IMG/VR virus record: IMGVR_UViG_3300024520_000378
Coordinates: 1 to 28,622 of that record
Length of the DNA stretch: 28,622 nucleotides
Source of the DNA: a virus
Direction: 5' to 3' (one strand)
Positions 2,037 to 11,213 of the stretch are shown piece by piece. The notes under the pieces are model-generated. The model was given only the letters and a program-made list of their open reading frames with translations, was not told where the DNA came from and searched no databases. How positions within the stretch are numbered: the first letter of the stretch is position 1; each line of letters opens with the position of its first letter. The position numbers and the translations under genes are program-made.

Positions 2037-2461
2037 TGGGCGTCGGCAAGATTCGCACAGTCTCTCGGCAATTGATCGACGAGCTTGGGCTCGGCGGCGG
2101 CGGCAGCGCCGCGATTGTCAGCGGGACGGCGATCACCTCTGGTTGCCCGCCGCACTGCCCCGCGCCTGCGAGCACCACGACCGCAGAGTTAGGGGAACGC
2201 GTCCTCTACGACCCAAGCAACAGCGAGCTGCTTGACGGTAGCCCGGCAATGACGTTTGCGGCACCAGCCTCGCCGATATTGGGTTCGCGGTGGGCAATAA
2301 AGAACCGAAGCGCGTCCCAAGAGCCAGTAATTATTGACGGCAACGGGAGCGACATCGAAGACCCGCTTGCGAGCTATGCCGTCGCTGCGAGTTTCACGCT
2401 GAGCGGCGACGGTATTTCCGTGGAGTGGGAATTCGACGGAGCCCAGTGGTTGGTTATATGA
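2036..2461 (+). CDS. putative virion/fibre protein with shared N-terminal anchor (141 aa)
   Basis: Begins MGVGKIRTVSRQLIDELGL, matching the gene at 982 over its first 19 residues, followed by a GGGG hinge. The rest (ERVLYDPSNSELLDGSPAMTFAAP...GSRWAIKNRS...IIDGNGSDIEDP...ISVEWEFDGAQWLVI) has the look of the small beta-rich tip domains common at phage fibre ends, where an 'xRWAIKNxS...ItIdgnG..Ie....' pattern recurs. Start and stop are coupled to both neighbours (TAATG before, ATGA after). It is likely a second protein docking at the same virion position as the 982 product. Confidence in the coding call is high; the role is inferred. Confidence 0.7.
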   Translation: MGVGKIRTVSRQLIDELGLGGGGSAAIVSGTAITSGCPPHCPAPASTTTAELGERVLYDPSNSELLDGSPAMTFAAPASPILGSRWAIKNRSASQEPVIIDGNGSDIEDPLASYAVAASFTLSGDGISVEWEFDGAQWLVI

Positions 2462-3195
2462 CCCACGTTCATAACAATCCGATAACCCCGGTTATTTCGC
2501 TCGCGGCAACCGGCAGCACAAGCGTGGCGCAGACGGTGACGATCACGAATTGGAGCAGCTACGACGCTCCCTCAGTCTGGGCCCGTGTAATCACGGCTAC
2601 TCAAAGCGAAGCGACCGCGCCGAGCGCGGTAACAAACAACGACGACGGGACGCTGACCGTGCCCATGCCCGCTGGCGCGGGCACCTATACGGTCCAGGTC
2701 CGCGTGCAGGAGTTCGGCACCCTGGCGCAGCCTGCGGTCACGGCGGACATAGTCCTGTCCACGCCACCTGCCTATCGGTACTACCGGCTGACCGGCCTCG
2801 TGGTCGTCGGCGGGGATACGGCACTCGAACGCTGGCGGCTCTACGACGCGGTATCAGGCGGCGGCACCCAATACCCGCCGACGATGAGCAACAACACTAC
2901 GCCGAGCCCCTACGTGGCGTCGGCGTCATTTGCCTACAGCTCGTCCTACGATCCGTGGAAGGCGTTCGACGGGCTCAGCTACACCATGTGGTGGCTGCTC
3001 GGCAGATCGGACGCAGAGCACCTGACAGACTGGATTCAGATTGACCTGGGGGCGCCTGTCGTGATCCTGTCGGCGTGGGTGGATTTCGGCGAATCGTACA
3101 CGAACTCCGTCACGTTCCAGGGCTCGACCGACGGGATCGCGTGGACCACGATCAGCACGACGGCGATCACGACGCAGGAAGTGTGGATTCTGTGA
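2458..3195 (+). CDS. virion protein with C-terminal F5/8 type C (discoidin) carbohydrate-binding domain (245 aa)
   Basis: The ATG overlaps the preceding stop (ATGA); the in-frame upstream GTG at 2425 would lie entirely inside the previous gene. Residues about 10-100 form a beta-rich, Thr/Val-rich region (VAQTVTITNWSSYDAPSVWARV...TLTVPMPAGAGTYTVQVRV) resembling an Ig-like domain. Residues about 105-245 match the F5/8 type C fold: YYRLTG at the domain start, SSSYDPWKAFDG, WIQIDLGAPVVILSAWV, then VTFQGSTDGIAWTTI. These are the classic 'W-x-DG...W-x-Q-x-DLG...S-x-DG-x-x-W' landmarks. Such domains bind cell-surface glycans, so this is a candidate host-recognition protein. It ends with GTGA, shared with the next gene. 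Confidence 0.75.
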   Translation: MTHVHNNPITPVISLAATGSTSVAQTVTITNWSSYDAPSVWARVITATQSEATAPSAVTNNDDGTLTVPMPAGAGTYTVQVRVQEFGTLAQPAVTADIVLSTPPAYRYYRLTGLVVVGGDTALERWRLYDAVSGGGTQYPPTMSNNTTPSPYVASASFAYSSSYDPWKAFDGLSYTMWWLLGRSDAEHLTDWIQIDLGAPVVILSAWVDFGESYTNSVTFQGSTDGIAWTTISTTAITTQEVWIL

Positions 3196-3410
3196 GAGCA
3201 GCTTGCGAGGCGGCGATTCTCGGATTCGCGCCAGCGTATCGCCAGCGAAACGCCGCCCTTCTGGGCGAACACGAGAACTACGTGCGGACGGTCCTGCGGC
3301 TCCTCCGCGATCACTACCACGAGCTCGTGATCCAGGGCGCCACTGAGTGGTCGGTCCCGCCGCAGATCGCAGCGACGCTTAGCGACATGAAGCCCGAGGG
3401 CTGGGAATGA
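3192..3410 (+). CDS. small alpha-helical protein of unknown function (72 aa)
   Basis: Starts at GTG in a GTGA overlap with the F5/8-domain gene. The product MRAACEAAILGFAPAYRQRNAALLGEHENYVRTVLRLLRDHYHELVIQGATEW is strongly helical. The frame is open further upstream (to an ATG at 3075), but that stretch lies wholly inside the F5/8 coding sequence and is not used. It ends with ATGA shared with the next gene. It is the first of three short helical genes ahead of the large terminase, so a packaging role is conceivable, but no family is recognised. Confidence 0.55.
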   Translation: MRAACEAAILGFAPAYRQRNAALLGEHENYVRTVLRLLRDHYHELVIQGATEWSVPPQIAATLSDMKPEGWE

Positions 3411-3808
3411 CAATGGACGCACCGCAAACGACCAGCGAGTACGGCGGAAACGTCATGGGCGCGATCGTCAAAGAGCACCGGGAACTGATGGAGCTTCGGG
3501 TCAAGTACGACGAGAAGCTCAGAGAGAACGGCAAGCTGTGGCACCGGGTCAAGATAGCGGAGACCCTTTGCAACGACGCCCAGGTCAAGCTCAAGAAGGC
3601 GCAGCGCGGGAACACCCTGGACGAGGTAGACGAAGACGCCCTCTTCCTGGCCCAGGCAGAGGTCACATTTAAGCGGCACGGAATCCGGGGCGGGAGGACA
3701 ATCAAGATCCGCTCGCGCGGGCGGGACGCGTCCGTGGTCCACGGCCCCGAGTCAAAGCCGCTGCTCAAAAGCGCAATCCGCAAGGCCCGCGAGTGGCTGG
3801 CCCGCTGA
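3407..3808 (+). CDS. hypothetical helical protein (133 aa)
   Basis: ATGA overlap with the preceding gene. The product is charged and mostly helical: residues 20-75 (AIVKEHRELMELRVKYDEKLRENGKLWHRVKIAE and onward) have coiled-coil spacing, followed by an acidic turn (DEVDEDALF) and a basic tail (GIRGGRTIKIRSRGR...SAIRKAREWLAR). A basic C terminus and a location just before the terminase genes would fit a small DNA-binding packaging factor, but no helix-turn-helix is evident and no homolog is recognised. Confidence 0.6.
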   Translation: MTMDAPQTTSEYGGNVMGAIVKEHRELMELRVKYDEKLRENGKLWHRVKIAETLCNDAQVKLKKAQRGNTLDEVDEDALFLAQAEVTFKRHGIRGGRTIKIRSRGRDASVVHGPESKPLLKSAIRKAREWLAR

Positions 3809-4210
3809 GTGCCGGGACGAGGACACCAACGGTCAAGCAAGGCCGGGAAGGCGAAGAGGCCGCCGAAGAAGGCGAAGCCCGCCGCAGAGCCGGACGTGCC
3901 GGACCTGCTCTCGTGGGCGCGGAAGGAAGTCCAGACTTGTCAGGCCTTGATCGAGAAGAGTCATAAGTACCTCGGCGAACAACTCGAAAAAGCGACCCAA
4001 GAAGACGGGAACGTTAACGACGTCCTCCGCATCCTCAAAGCCCTCGAGGGCCGCCAGGACCGGGCGCTCACGCTCGAAGAAAGGCTCACGCCGCGCGACG
4101 TGGAGGCACGGCCAGAACTGGCTGCTGGAGCGGGCGGACGTCAGCGAGGGTTCGCCGACTCTCTGGAAGCCGTCCAAGCTGTCGCGAAAGCCGAACGCGA
4201 GACTGCTTAA
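3809..4210 (+). CDS. candidate small terminase subunit, or N-terminal part of the large terminase reading (133 aa)
   Basis: GTG start directly after the previous TGA. The N terminus is Lys/Arg/Pro-rich (RSSKAGKAKRPPKKAKPAAEP), followed by a helical stretch (LLSWARKEVQTCQALIEKSHKYLGEQLEKATQEDGNVNDVLRILKALEGRQ). Size, charge and place just ahead of the large terminase suit a small terminase subunit. Third-codon-position GC is high up to about 4100 and then drops, while frame +1 (the terminase frame) becomes strongly codon-biased from about 4098. The last ~36 residues (VEARPELAAGAGGRQRG...) may therefore not be real coding, and the product may continue by frameshift into the large terminase. Confidence 0.55.
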   Translation: MPGRGHQRSSKAGKAKRPPKKAKPAAEPDVPDLLSWARKEVQTCQALIEKSHKYLGEQLEKATQEDGNVNDVLRILKALEGRQDRALTLEERLTPRDVEARPELAAGAGGRQRGFADSLEAVQAVAKAERETA

Positions 4211-4277
4211 GGCCGCCGCCCTCTTCACCTGGATCGAGAACAACCTTCGCATCCGGATAAAGCGAAAGGTTGACATC

Positions 4278-5969
4278 GTGGCCGCCGACGGCAAGAAGCG
4301 GAAGACGCAGGTCGTCGGGCTGCGATTCAACGCCGTGCAAATGATCCTCTGCCAAGAGCTGGCCAGGGCATGGTCTGAGGGGCGGCCCTACAAGGTTCTC
4401 GTACCCAAGGCCCGGCAGCTAGGGATCAGTTCTTGGTTCCAGGCCGTGCAGTATGCCATGTGCGTGGGCGAGGGGAACTACCACACGGCAACCGTGGCCC
4501 ACACCGAGGCGGGCGCCGAGGAGGTCTTCTCGAAGACCCAGACCTTCCACAAGGAGCTTCGACCGCCGCCGGACCTGCTCACGCGCCAGCAGAACCGGCT
4601 CACACTGACCAACGGCTCGACCACCTGGACCGGGACGATCAAGACGGGTGACGAGCTCGCCAAGGGGCCGACGCTTTCGTGCCTGCATTTGTCGGAGTGC
4701 GCGAACTTCTCCGACAAGGGGATAAACGCCGTCGGCGCGATCACGAGCGCCCTCAACGCGGTAGCTGACGCCCCGGACGCGATTATCGGCTACGAGTCTA
4801 CGGCCAACGGGCGAGACCCCTTCTTCTGGGTGGAGTGTGAGCGGGCCAAAGACCCAAACAGCCGGACGGAGAACCGGCTCATCTTCCTGCCGTGGTTCCT
4901 CGACCCCGAATACTCCATGACGTGGACCGAATACAAGACCCGCCTCGCCGGCAAGAAGATACCCAAGCAGTTCGCCCTCACCACGGAGGAGAAGCTGCTT
5001 CGCAAGAAGCTGGGCGCGGTGGAGGTCACCAAGGACAATTACACCTACCGATACCGGGCGGACCTGACGCGGGAGCAGTTGCTCTGGAGGCGCTTCAAAA
5101 TTTCCAACGACTGCTTCAACAAGGAGCACCTGTTCCAGCGGTATTACCCTAGCTTCTATGAGGAGGCCTTCTCCAGCACGGTCGAGTCGCTGTTTAGCAA
5201 CGAGACGATCACGTATTACATGAACCACTCGCGCCCCGCGCAGATCGTGTGCAACGTGGTGGACGCGGGCCCGAAGGTGGCCCTCTACGCGAACCCAAAG
5301 GGCAACCTCCGGGTGTGGGCCGACGCGGTTCCCGGCCAGGATTACGTAATCGGCGCCGACGTCGGTGGAGAGCAGAAGAACAGCGACCCCTGCGCTGCCT
5401 ACGTGATCAACGCCAACACCCTCCAGGTGGTGGCGGCCGTGCATGGGCACATGGAGTTTGACCATTACGCGGACTATCTGTGCCTCCTAGGGAAGTACTA
5501 CAACTTCGCCAGGCTGGTCGTGGAGAACAACCATCAGCCTGCGGTCGCGAAGACCTGCTTCAAGAACTCCTACCCGAACCTCTACCACTACGAGGACGAA
5601 AACTCGATCCGGGGGACCGTGGCGGCCAAGCCTGGCTTCAACACCAACCGGAAGACGCGCCCGGAAATAATCGCCTACCTCGACGCCGCCACTCGGGACC
5701 GGAAGCTGTCCTGCTACGACGGGGGCTTCGCGAAGGAGCTGGAGCATTTCGTCTGGAGGGAGTCTGCCAAGAAGTACCAGGCGAGTTCCCCGCACCACGA
5801 CGACCGGGTTATGGCAATGGCGATAGCCCTCTACTGCTGTCCGGGGGCGGGCGAACAGGCCGGGCGACCGGCTACCGTGAAACCAAGTCGAGCTTATTTG
5901 GCCTACCTGCGGCTCGAGGCCGAGGGCGATGGCGACGGCGACGTCCATAGAGGGGTCTTGGTGCTCTGA
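4278..5969 (+). CDS. terL: terminase large subunit (packaging ATPase/nuclease)
   Basis: Motor that translocates phage DNA into the prohead and cuts it. Counting from the GTG: adenine-motif region LRFNAVQ (15-21), Walker A-like VPKARQLGIS (42-51), Walker B LSCLHLSE with the catalytic Glu at about 140, and RNase H-like nuclease landmarks YVIGADVGGEQ (about 355), VVENN (about 414) and HHDDRVMAMAIA (about 505). These are the large-terminase hallmarks. The start is uncertain. The conserved N-terminal region (FTWIENNLRIRIKRKVDIV...) and strong codon bias in this frame run back to about 4098, yet no ATG, GTG or TTG exists between there and 4278, so the GTG probably gives a truncated model. The stop overlaps the portal start (TGATG). 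Confidence 0.9.
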   Translation: MAADGKKRKTQVVGLRFNAVQMILCQELARAWSEGRPYKVLVPKARQLGISSWFQAVQYAMCVGEGNYHTATVAHTEAGAEEVFSKTQTFHKELRPPPDLLTRQQNRLTLTNGSTTWTGTIKTGDELAKGPTLSCLHLSECANFSDKGINAVGAITSALNAVADAPDAIIGYESTANGRDPFFWVECERAKDPNSRTENRLIFLPWFLDPEYSMTWTEYKTRLAGKKIPKQFALTTEEKLLRKKLGAVEVTKDNYTYRYRADLTREQLLWRRFKISNDCFNKEHLFQRYYPSFYEEAFSSTVESLFSNETITYYMNHSRPAQIVCNVVDAGPKVALYANPKGNLRVWADAVPGQDYVIGADVGGEQKNSDPCAAYVINANTLQVVAAVHGHMEFDHYADYLCLLGKYYNFARLVVENNHQPAVAKTCFKNSYPNLYHYEDENSIRGTVAAKPGFNTNRKTRPEIIAYLDAATRDRKLSCYDGGFAKELEHFVWRESAKKYQASSPHHDDRVMAMAIALYCCPGAGEQAGRPATVKPSRAYLAYLRLEAEGDGDGDVHRGVLVL

Positions 5970-9563: not shown

Positions 9564-10670
9564 ATGCCGGGTCAAGGCATTGGCGTCAGCGAACGCGTTG
9601 CGAAGGCAACGATTTCCATGTGGCTGAAGAAACTCCACACGGAAACAATCCAGAACTACGCGCTCCTGAGCGTGATCCAGAAGAAGGGGAACGTCAACTA
9701 TGGCGGGTCCGGCGGCGAGCTCCGCTGGGTCTTCCAGTACCGCGACCACGACCTCGACGGTCACATCGACGGCGCGCCCAAGGCGTTCAAGCGCAAGAAG
9801 GTGATCGAAAACGCAAACCTCGACTGGCGCGGCTACGAGTCCACCGAGGTGATCACCCTCAAGGAGCGCGAGCAGCAGTCGGGCGAAGAGGCCATGATCA
9901 AGATTTTCGGGGCCCGCGAGAAGATGATGCGCGAAGGCCTCATGCGCCAGCTCGGGAAGGAGTGGTACGTTGACGGCAACGCCGCCGGCAACGCCGAACG
10001 GTTCCACGGCGTCGAGTCCATGATGTCCTCTGGCGTCCAGACCGCAGCGGACGACCTGGCCACCCTGCCAAATGACACCTATGCGGGTGTCTCCACCGCT
10101 TACGGGTCGCTCAAGAGCAACGCCGTGAAGGGCGTGGACGAAGAGTACGGCGTCTGGTCTCCGGTGATCGTCAACACGAACGTCAACCCCGGCGGCGGCA
10201 ACCGCGCCTGGGCCGACTTCGCAGACGAGTTCATGCGCCTCGGGATCATTGAGGCGTCCTACGGGACCACCTCGACGGACAACATCGACCTGATCCTGCT
10301 CACGAAGACGGCCTATCGGCAATTCCTGAACATTGCCGACGACAAGGAGCGGATCAACATCATGCGCGGCGCCGACGTCGAGCTGGTGAGCCTCGGCTTC
10401 AAGAACTTCGTCAACTTCGACGGGGTGCAGGTCGGCTGGGATTTCGGGATCAGCGCCACCGACCCGGCGGCCAACGTGGTCCACGGCTACGGCTTCAACT
10501 GCGACAAGCTGTACCTCAAGGTGCTCGGCGGCAAGGACCGCAAGACACTGTGGGGCTCCAAGCTCACCTGGAATGACGATTACGCGAGCGATCGGATCTA
10601 CCTCCATCTGCTCGGCAACCTCTGCTTCGAGAGCCCCCGGCACTTCGTGGCCTTCAAAGACCTCAACTAG
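9564..10670 (+). CDS. major capsid protein (368 aa)
   Basis: Main coat protein, expected HK97 fold. The evidence is position (right after the scaffold), size, a strong ribosome site (AGAGGTAGG, 9551-9559) and sequence style: an N-terminal arm (SERVAKATISMWLKKLHTETIQNYALLSVIQKKG), an extended loop with FQYRDHDLDGHIDG, a spine-like helix (EEAMIKIFGAREKMMREGLMRQLGKEWY), then a beta-rich P/A domain (DNIDLILLTKTAYRQFLNIAD; YLKVLGGKDRKTLWGSKLTW). The pattern 'T..ay..f......' and C-terminal 'LHLLGNLCFESPRHFVAFKDL' match capsid families of short-tailed phages. No cleavage or fusion is apparent. Confidence 0.85.
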   Translation: MPGQGIGVSERVAKATISMWLKKLHTETIQNYALLSVIQKKGNVNYGGSGGELRWVFQYRDHDLDGHIDGAPKAFKRKKVIENANLDWRGYESTEVITLKEREQQSGEEAMIKIFGAREKMMREGLMRQLGKEWYVDGNAAGNAERFHGVESMMSSGVQTAADDLATLPNDTYAGVSTAYGSLKSNAVKGVDEEYGVWSPVIVNTNVNPGGGNRAWADFADEFMRLGIIEASYGTTSTDNIDLILLTKTAYRQFLNIADDKERINIMRGADVELVSLGFKNFVNFDGVQVGWDFGISATDPAANVVHGYGFNCDKLYLKVLGGKDRKTLWGSKLTWNDDYASDRIYLHLLGNLCFESPRHFVAFKDLN

Positions 10671-10685
10671 GTCAGGAGAAAGAAC

Positions 10686-11213
10686 ATGGCAATTACTCCA
10701 CGCGACGGGGCGGTCAAGAGTCAAGACCTCCCCTTCTCCCTCGGCGATCGGCACGCTGCCGCAACGGGCACCGTCGAAATCAGCAAGTTGCTCGGAACGA
10801 CCTTCGAGCTGGAGGACGGGCTCCACGCAATCCTCGTGGAGGCAGGCGCGGCTCAGGCTTCGCCCGCCAAGCTCTGCTTCAAGTGGTCGGACACGGTGGC
10901 GCGCAAGGTCGTGATCACGTCGGCGCCGGGAAACCAGGCGGTGGGCGTCGCCCACCCCGACCTGGAAGACCTCGCCCTCGGCGACCTGTTCTTCCTGCTC
11001 CGGGGTGGCGCTGGCCACGCGCGGGTTAGTGGGATTTCGTCGGCGGCAATCGTGGCCGGCGTCGTGGTCCAGCCAACCACTGACGGGAAGCTGGTCACCG
11101 ACGCCGCCTACGAGCAGCACGTCAGCCTCGGCAACGCCCTCAACGCTGCCGCTGCCGTGGACCTCGACGTCGAAATTCAGATTACCGACGATATGCCGGG
11201 GGCCTTCGCCTAA
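10686..11213 (+). CDS. capsid decoration-like protein (175 aa)
   Basis: Immediately downstream of the major capsid gene with its own good ribosome site (AGGAGA, 10675-10680), implying high expression. The product is beta-rich with short Gly/Ala turns (VEISKLLGTTFELEDGLHAILVEAGAA...KLCFKWSDTVARKVVITSAPG...VGVAHPDLEDLALGDLFFLLRGGAG), a composition fitting a head decoration or cement protein. No signal peptide. The stop is coupled to the 58-aa gene (TAATG). The role is inferred from location and composition. Confidence 0.65.
   Translation: MAITPRDGAVKSQDLPFSLGDRHAAATGTVEISKLLGTTFELEDGLHAILVEAGAAQASPAKLCFKWSDTVARKVVITSAPGNQAVGVAHPDLEDLALGDLFFLLRGGAGHARVSGISSAAIVAGVVVQPTTDGKLVTDAAYEQHVSLGNALNAAAAVDLDVEIQITDDMPGAFA

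Follow-up and report, generated by a model that had tools for sequence, protein, structure and literature searches.

The large terminase (TerL) gene analysed here is coded well 5' of GTG 4278, with no standard start codon (ATG, GTG or TTG) in this upstream part. The gene lies in a window that comprises the whole stretch of DNA studied, 28,622 nt in length, which corresponds to positions 1–28,622 of the 28.6-kb virus record IMGVR_UViG_3300024520_000378 in IMG/VR. Translation of TerL begins or is joined 5' of position ~4200. As the best, though still tentative, explanation, we propose that TerL has its start within the upstream gene, at CTG 4122 or CTG 4125, which gives an overlap of ~90 nt between the two genes.

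The TerL locus and its relatives

The TerL frame matched phrog_2 in a profile search (1.8e-15). Its predicted structure matched the fold of T4 gp17 (Z 25.6), and the nuclease domain superimposed on the G20c nuclease with an rmsd of 1.9 over 180 residues. The product is a large terminase consisting of an ATPase with a Walker A motif and an RNase H-like nuclease domain. For the ORF at 3809–4210, family and phage searches revealed neither a match nor any relative besides that described below, and no similarity to TerL. Its predicted helices (residues 30–64 and 69–100) are of low confidence, and a stand-alone structure model was discarded because of its poor quality. This ORF is possibly a TerS-like small terminase. 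A second small ORF precedes TerL at 3407–3808, is stop–start coupled to the 3809 ORF via TGAGTG and is kept in the relative. Either of the two ORFs could encode the small terminase. Stop–start coupling thus occurs at 3808/3809, and it was also found at 5969. A gene similar to tail proteins (phrog_17517; 2425–3195) lies just 5' of the packaging genes.

Relatives were sought among viral contigs, genome contigs, phages and plasmids, using TerL, the upstream ORF, the portal and the major head protein as queries in addition to motif patterns. The only close relative was IMGVR_UViG_3300049999_000692 (L001), with ~77% DNA identity over 7.9 kb and 75–76% protein identity. All others reached at most ~31%, so that no intermediates were available for resolving the TerL N-terminus, and two genomes, the window and L001, form the evidence base for the mechanism. 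In L001, the two frames overlap in the same way, the N-terminal segment of TerL (WRHGQNWLL) is shared, and the upstream ORF is 80% identical and ends at the same TAA stop. The high conservation of the overlap is not special in this pair, which is more conserved elsewhere and has longer identical runs there. The region of the major head protein (9700–10870) is far more conserved than the pair mean of 76%, with identical runs of up to 86 nt, which perhaps reflects recent exchange or strong constraint.

Table 1. Features at the 5' end of the TerL gene, in window coordinates
Feature	Position	Strand	Basis or remark
Upstream ORF, 133 aa, unknown family, predicted helical hairpin	3809–4210	+	GTG start directly after the TGA of the preceding gene
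TerL reading frame, stop to stop	3951–5969	+	first ATG/GTG/TTG is GTG 4278
Overlap of upstream ORF and TerL frame, +1 relation	4100–4210	+	codon usage by frame
GGAGG, SD-like; GGCGG in L001	4102–4106	+	alignment, SD scoring
Possible small hairpin CGGCCA-GAAC-UGGCUG	4109–4124	+	identical in both contigs
Tandem CTG CTG in TerL frame, proposed TerL start	4122–4127	+	conserved in both contigs
GTC codon, GTG in L001 (L001:1413)	4140–4142	+	pairwise alignment
First helix (ARLLKAAALFTWIENN) and first strand of the TerL ATPase fold	4197–4280	+	removed by a start at GTG 4278
CTGCTTAA, CTG in TerL frame that overlaps the stop of the upstream ORF; candidate for a coupled restart	4203–4210	+	CTG and stop conserved
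GTG, earliest standard start codon in TerL frame	4278–4280	+	too far 3'

Coding signal and fold 5' of GTG 4278

Codon usage was trained on confident genes of the window, and the same procedure was applied to all plus-strand ORFs. In the TerL frame, the coding signal started at ~4110. Forcing the start to GTG 4278 cost 32.6 log-units, and the homologous GTG of L001 cost 31.1. The corresponding loss was 0–4.5 in the other well-scoring plus-strand genes of the window and 7.5 for the 3809 ORF. These values bear out the original prediction that TerL coding extends 5' of GTG 4278 in the absence of ATG, GTG or TTG. Its further claims, that the upstream frame loses its bias after ~4100 and that the two frames stand in a +1 relation, held as well. 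By its upstream-frame score, 4100–4141 ranks among the lowest 0.2% of real coding stretches, and the +1 frame of a single gene equals the TerL-frame score of this segment in only 0.02% of stretches. The hypothesis that only the upstream frame codes was rejected in both contigs (P<0.0001 for the window, 0.0002 for L001). Between 4142 and 4207, both frames showed intermediate scores, as an overlap would give. The 17 differences between the contigs in the overlap are spread 7/4/6 over the codon positions of the upstream frame and 4/6/7 over those of the TerL frame, which does not separate the frames. A single-switch model placed the change point at 4105–4113 for the window alone and at 4106–4111 jointly with L001, with 4106 or 4108 in 500 of 500 bootstraps of the joint analysis. 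The two contigs are, however, identical at 4105–4129 and provide no independent evidence there.

We then compared 97 distinct TerL sequences, namely those of the window, L001 and distant relatives. A start was required to lie at least 48 aa before Walker A, or 60 aa for the window and L001, because both carry an insertion. Such a start, ahead of the first ATPase strand, is present in 94 of the 97 sequences (an ATG is available in 86 of these). Of the other three, two are cut off by a contig edge, and the window is the sole internal exception. The relatives share a helix–strand element ('Y/F....LKIR.K') before an 'F.LN..Q' block, and GTG 4278 would cut this element. The predicted TerL structure shows a confident helix (residues 130–145) and strand (147–157) in the ATPase domain, with GTG 4278 encoding residue 157 at the end of that first ATPase strand. 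In alignments with the P74-26 and HK97 TerL structures, chain residues 1–2 fall on model residues 131–132, that is, at position ~4200. A TerL start at GTG 4278 is ruled out by the codon loss, the starts of the relatives and the predicted fold.

Several TerLs deserve separate mention. Two related ones, in L015 (282–596) and L019 (3794–4108), have no upstream start other than a TTG ~88 aa ahead of Walker A, with a G-rich SD-like stretch 5' of the codon. In L067 (1–345), a late TTG is the one standard start that the TerL frame offers ahead of Walker A, and the frame runs off the contig edge; a GGGG run lies near the expected start, and the missing start is possibly due to the contig edge or a sequence error. 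The product of 790–2817 in L010 (PQ571263.1, Bacteroides phage BF1-TP2) carries the label 'tail spike protein', yet its alignment is that of a large terminase, and Terminase_6C is cited in its own annotation note. Going by the alignment, the label is probably a misannotation.

Initiation at a CTG codon or a change of frame

As a control for candidate starts, we determined the best in-frame signal immediately 5' of the start of 37 ordinary genes, which reached a maximum of 4.4. The signal was 2.4 before CTG 4122, 3.4 before CTG 4125 and 3.3 before GTG 1413 of L001, whereas it amounted to 6.9 before window position 4140 and 4.7 before CTG 4203. A start at CTG 4122 lost only 2.4 log-units in the window and 3.8 in L001, inside the control range. 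The tandem CTG codons, which the original prediction had mentioned as an alternative, are therefore roughly on a par with a frameshift in explaining the data. They are also the most economical solution, because each of the other TerLs whose start is visible forms a separate gene with its own start. TerL would accordingly be a separate gene in the +1 frame, overlapping the end of a preceding, probably TerS-like small gene by ~90 nt and initiated at a non-standard codon within it, most likely one of the two CTGs. Ribosomes already on the upstream ORF may help initiation, as may, in the window, the GGAGG 13–15 nt 5' of the codons. The predicted N-terminus is Met followed by LERADVSEGSPTLWKPSK (CTG 4122) or by ERADVSEGSPTLWKPSK (CTG 4125). 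The leader would comprise 95 aa before Walker A, including the ~11-aa insertion, as compared with 51–97 aa in other TerLs. A start at 4122 keeps the entire fold, since the ATPase fold of known TerLs begins at a position equivalent to ~4200. Both the preference for initiation over a shift of frame and the choice of codon are inferences.

In bacteria, CTG is a rare and weak start codon. As in other cases of CTG or near-cognate initiation in bacteria and phages, the window has a needed N-terminus with only near-cognate codons, here conserved, inside a translated upstream ORF. In contrast to those cases, the start is a candidate, the SD spacing is long (13–15 nt) and the SD sequence is not conserved in L001. 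The GGAGG noted in the original prediction is thus present in the window (−9.3 kcal/mol, 13 nt before CTG 4122) but is replaced in L001 by a weaker element (−4.8). Other genes of the phage have SD-like sites 12–13 nt from their starts (3413, 5969; 3242 in L001), and this long spacing applies to the portal gene as well as to the 3413 gene. Two further points count against the CTG start. The switch model slightly prefers a boundary at 4106–4111 (−4.3 log-units for 4122 in the window), which suits a frameshift, and L001 has an ordinary option in GTG 1413. Because of this in-frame GTG, it is only in the window that standard starts are completely absent, and this absence is not conserved. ACG 4098 was rejected as a TerL start, as L001 has AAA there.

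At prfB the frames stand in a +1 relation, as they do at the window locus, and a prfB-like shift had originally been the preferred cause. Ribosomes on the 3809 ORF would shift +1 into the TerL frame at ~4105–4113 and yield a putative low-abundance fusion of the first ~98 upstream-protein residues to TerL. We regard this as possible but less probable than initiation at CTG 4122/4125. It agrees with two open, +1-related frames whose signals fall and rise abruptly at one place, also in L001, and with a 25-nt identical run that begins at the change point and contains the possible hairpin. Inspection of the alignment at 4050–4140, however, revealed no slippery P-site/A-site codon pair that re-pairs well in the +1 frame, no CCC or CUU, and no stop codon after any codon or at the change point. 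The P site thus lacks a conserved slippery codon that is followed in the A site by a slowly decoded codon or a stop. The codons immediately 5' of the change point differ between the contigs, as does the SD-like element, and the prfB-like mechanism was not upheld. Identical runs of 25–26 nt are not rare in this pair, and the identity of the hairpin in both contigs precludes covariation. In the window, the RNA of the whole region shows no unusual stability (z +1.6; −2.5 in L001), and no Rfam match was found at the locus. The signal at 4107–4121 is too short to require a shift. When the fusion was modelled by reading GCAC (4106–4109) as one step, the TerL part was good, whereas residues 110–124 had a pLDDT <50 and the junction ~50–60. 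The original prediction had proposed to look for a fused small–large reading in homologs; none was found among the TerLs compared, and wherever the start of another TerL is visible, no fusion is needed.

In other phages, terL has been suggested to undergo recoding (PMC5009743, PMC9030533), and a frameshift here would extend a known kind. For terL of Streptomyces phage Hau3, translational bypassing at a UUA codon preceded by KGWG has been proposed (PMC5009743). There, too, the large terminase is thought to need non-standard decoding, but the UUA/KGWG motif was not seen at the window change point, and the anomaly here concerns the gene's 5' end. A putative −1 frameshift affects terL of Microbacterium phage vB_MoxS-R1 (PMC9030533). 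There, the TerL-related coding signal likewise extends over two ORFs, but both encode parts of TerL, while our upstream ORF lacks TerL similarity and the relation is +1. The +1 frameshift of Listeria phage PSA cps/tsh (PMC5009743) shares the frame relation. The cps/tsh and prfB sites, however, use CCC or CUU codons, often followed by a stop codon, and the window has no such site. In a more far-reaching and rather improbable reading, a +1 frameshift that does without a classical slippery site would fuse a TerS-like protein with the packaging ATPase and thereby set the ratio of free small subunit to TerS–TerL fusion.

An ordinary GTG start at 4140–4142 is unlikely. L001 would use GTG 1413, and C4142 of the window would be an assembly error, a population variant or a defective copy. 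The aligned GTG of L001, a loss of only 3.3–7.4, a leader of 89 aa before Walker A and a reasonable SD in the window (GGAGCGG, spacing 6, −6.0) speak for this start. Yet the signal of 6.9 before 4140 exceeds that of all 37 control starts, the alignment is locally gapped, and single-base consensus errors are rare. Termination–reinitiation at CTG 4203, which would yield a minimal TerL, is about as unlikely. Known TerL folds begin approximately here (P74-26 residue 2 and HK97 residue 1), the adjacent genes are stop–start coupled, and both the CTG and the stop are conserved in L001. This start has no SD, however, and leaves unexplained 10.6 log-units of TerL-frame signal 5' of it in the window and 6.8 in L001, and the upstream frame alone does not account for 4100–4210 (P<1e-4). 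Sequence error, the remaining suggestion of the original prediction, is conceivable as the one-base substitution at 4142, whereas a 1-nt indel common to both assemblies, which would turn the abutting signals into one continuous frame, is very improbable because the ~23% diverged L001 has the same frames and upstream stop, and the site is not a homopolymer.

Meaning for terminase genes

TerL genes are widely used as markers of tailed phages, and their starts are usually called automatically. Gene callers restricted to ATG, GTG and TTG remove the first ATPase helix and strand here. If TerL starts at CTG 4122/4125, the locus would be a clean natural case of an essential gene that is initiated at a non-AUG codon within another gene. 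A frameshift fusion, if demonstrated instead, would represent a new way to tie the small and large terminase together.
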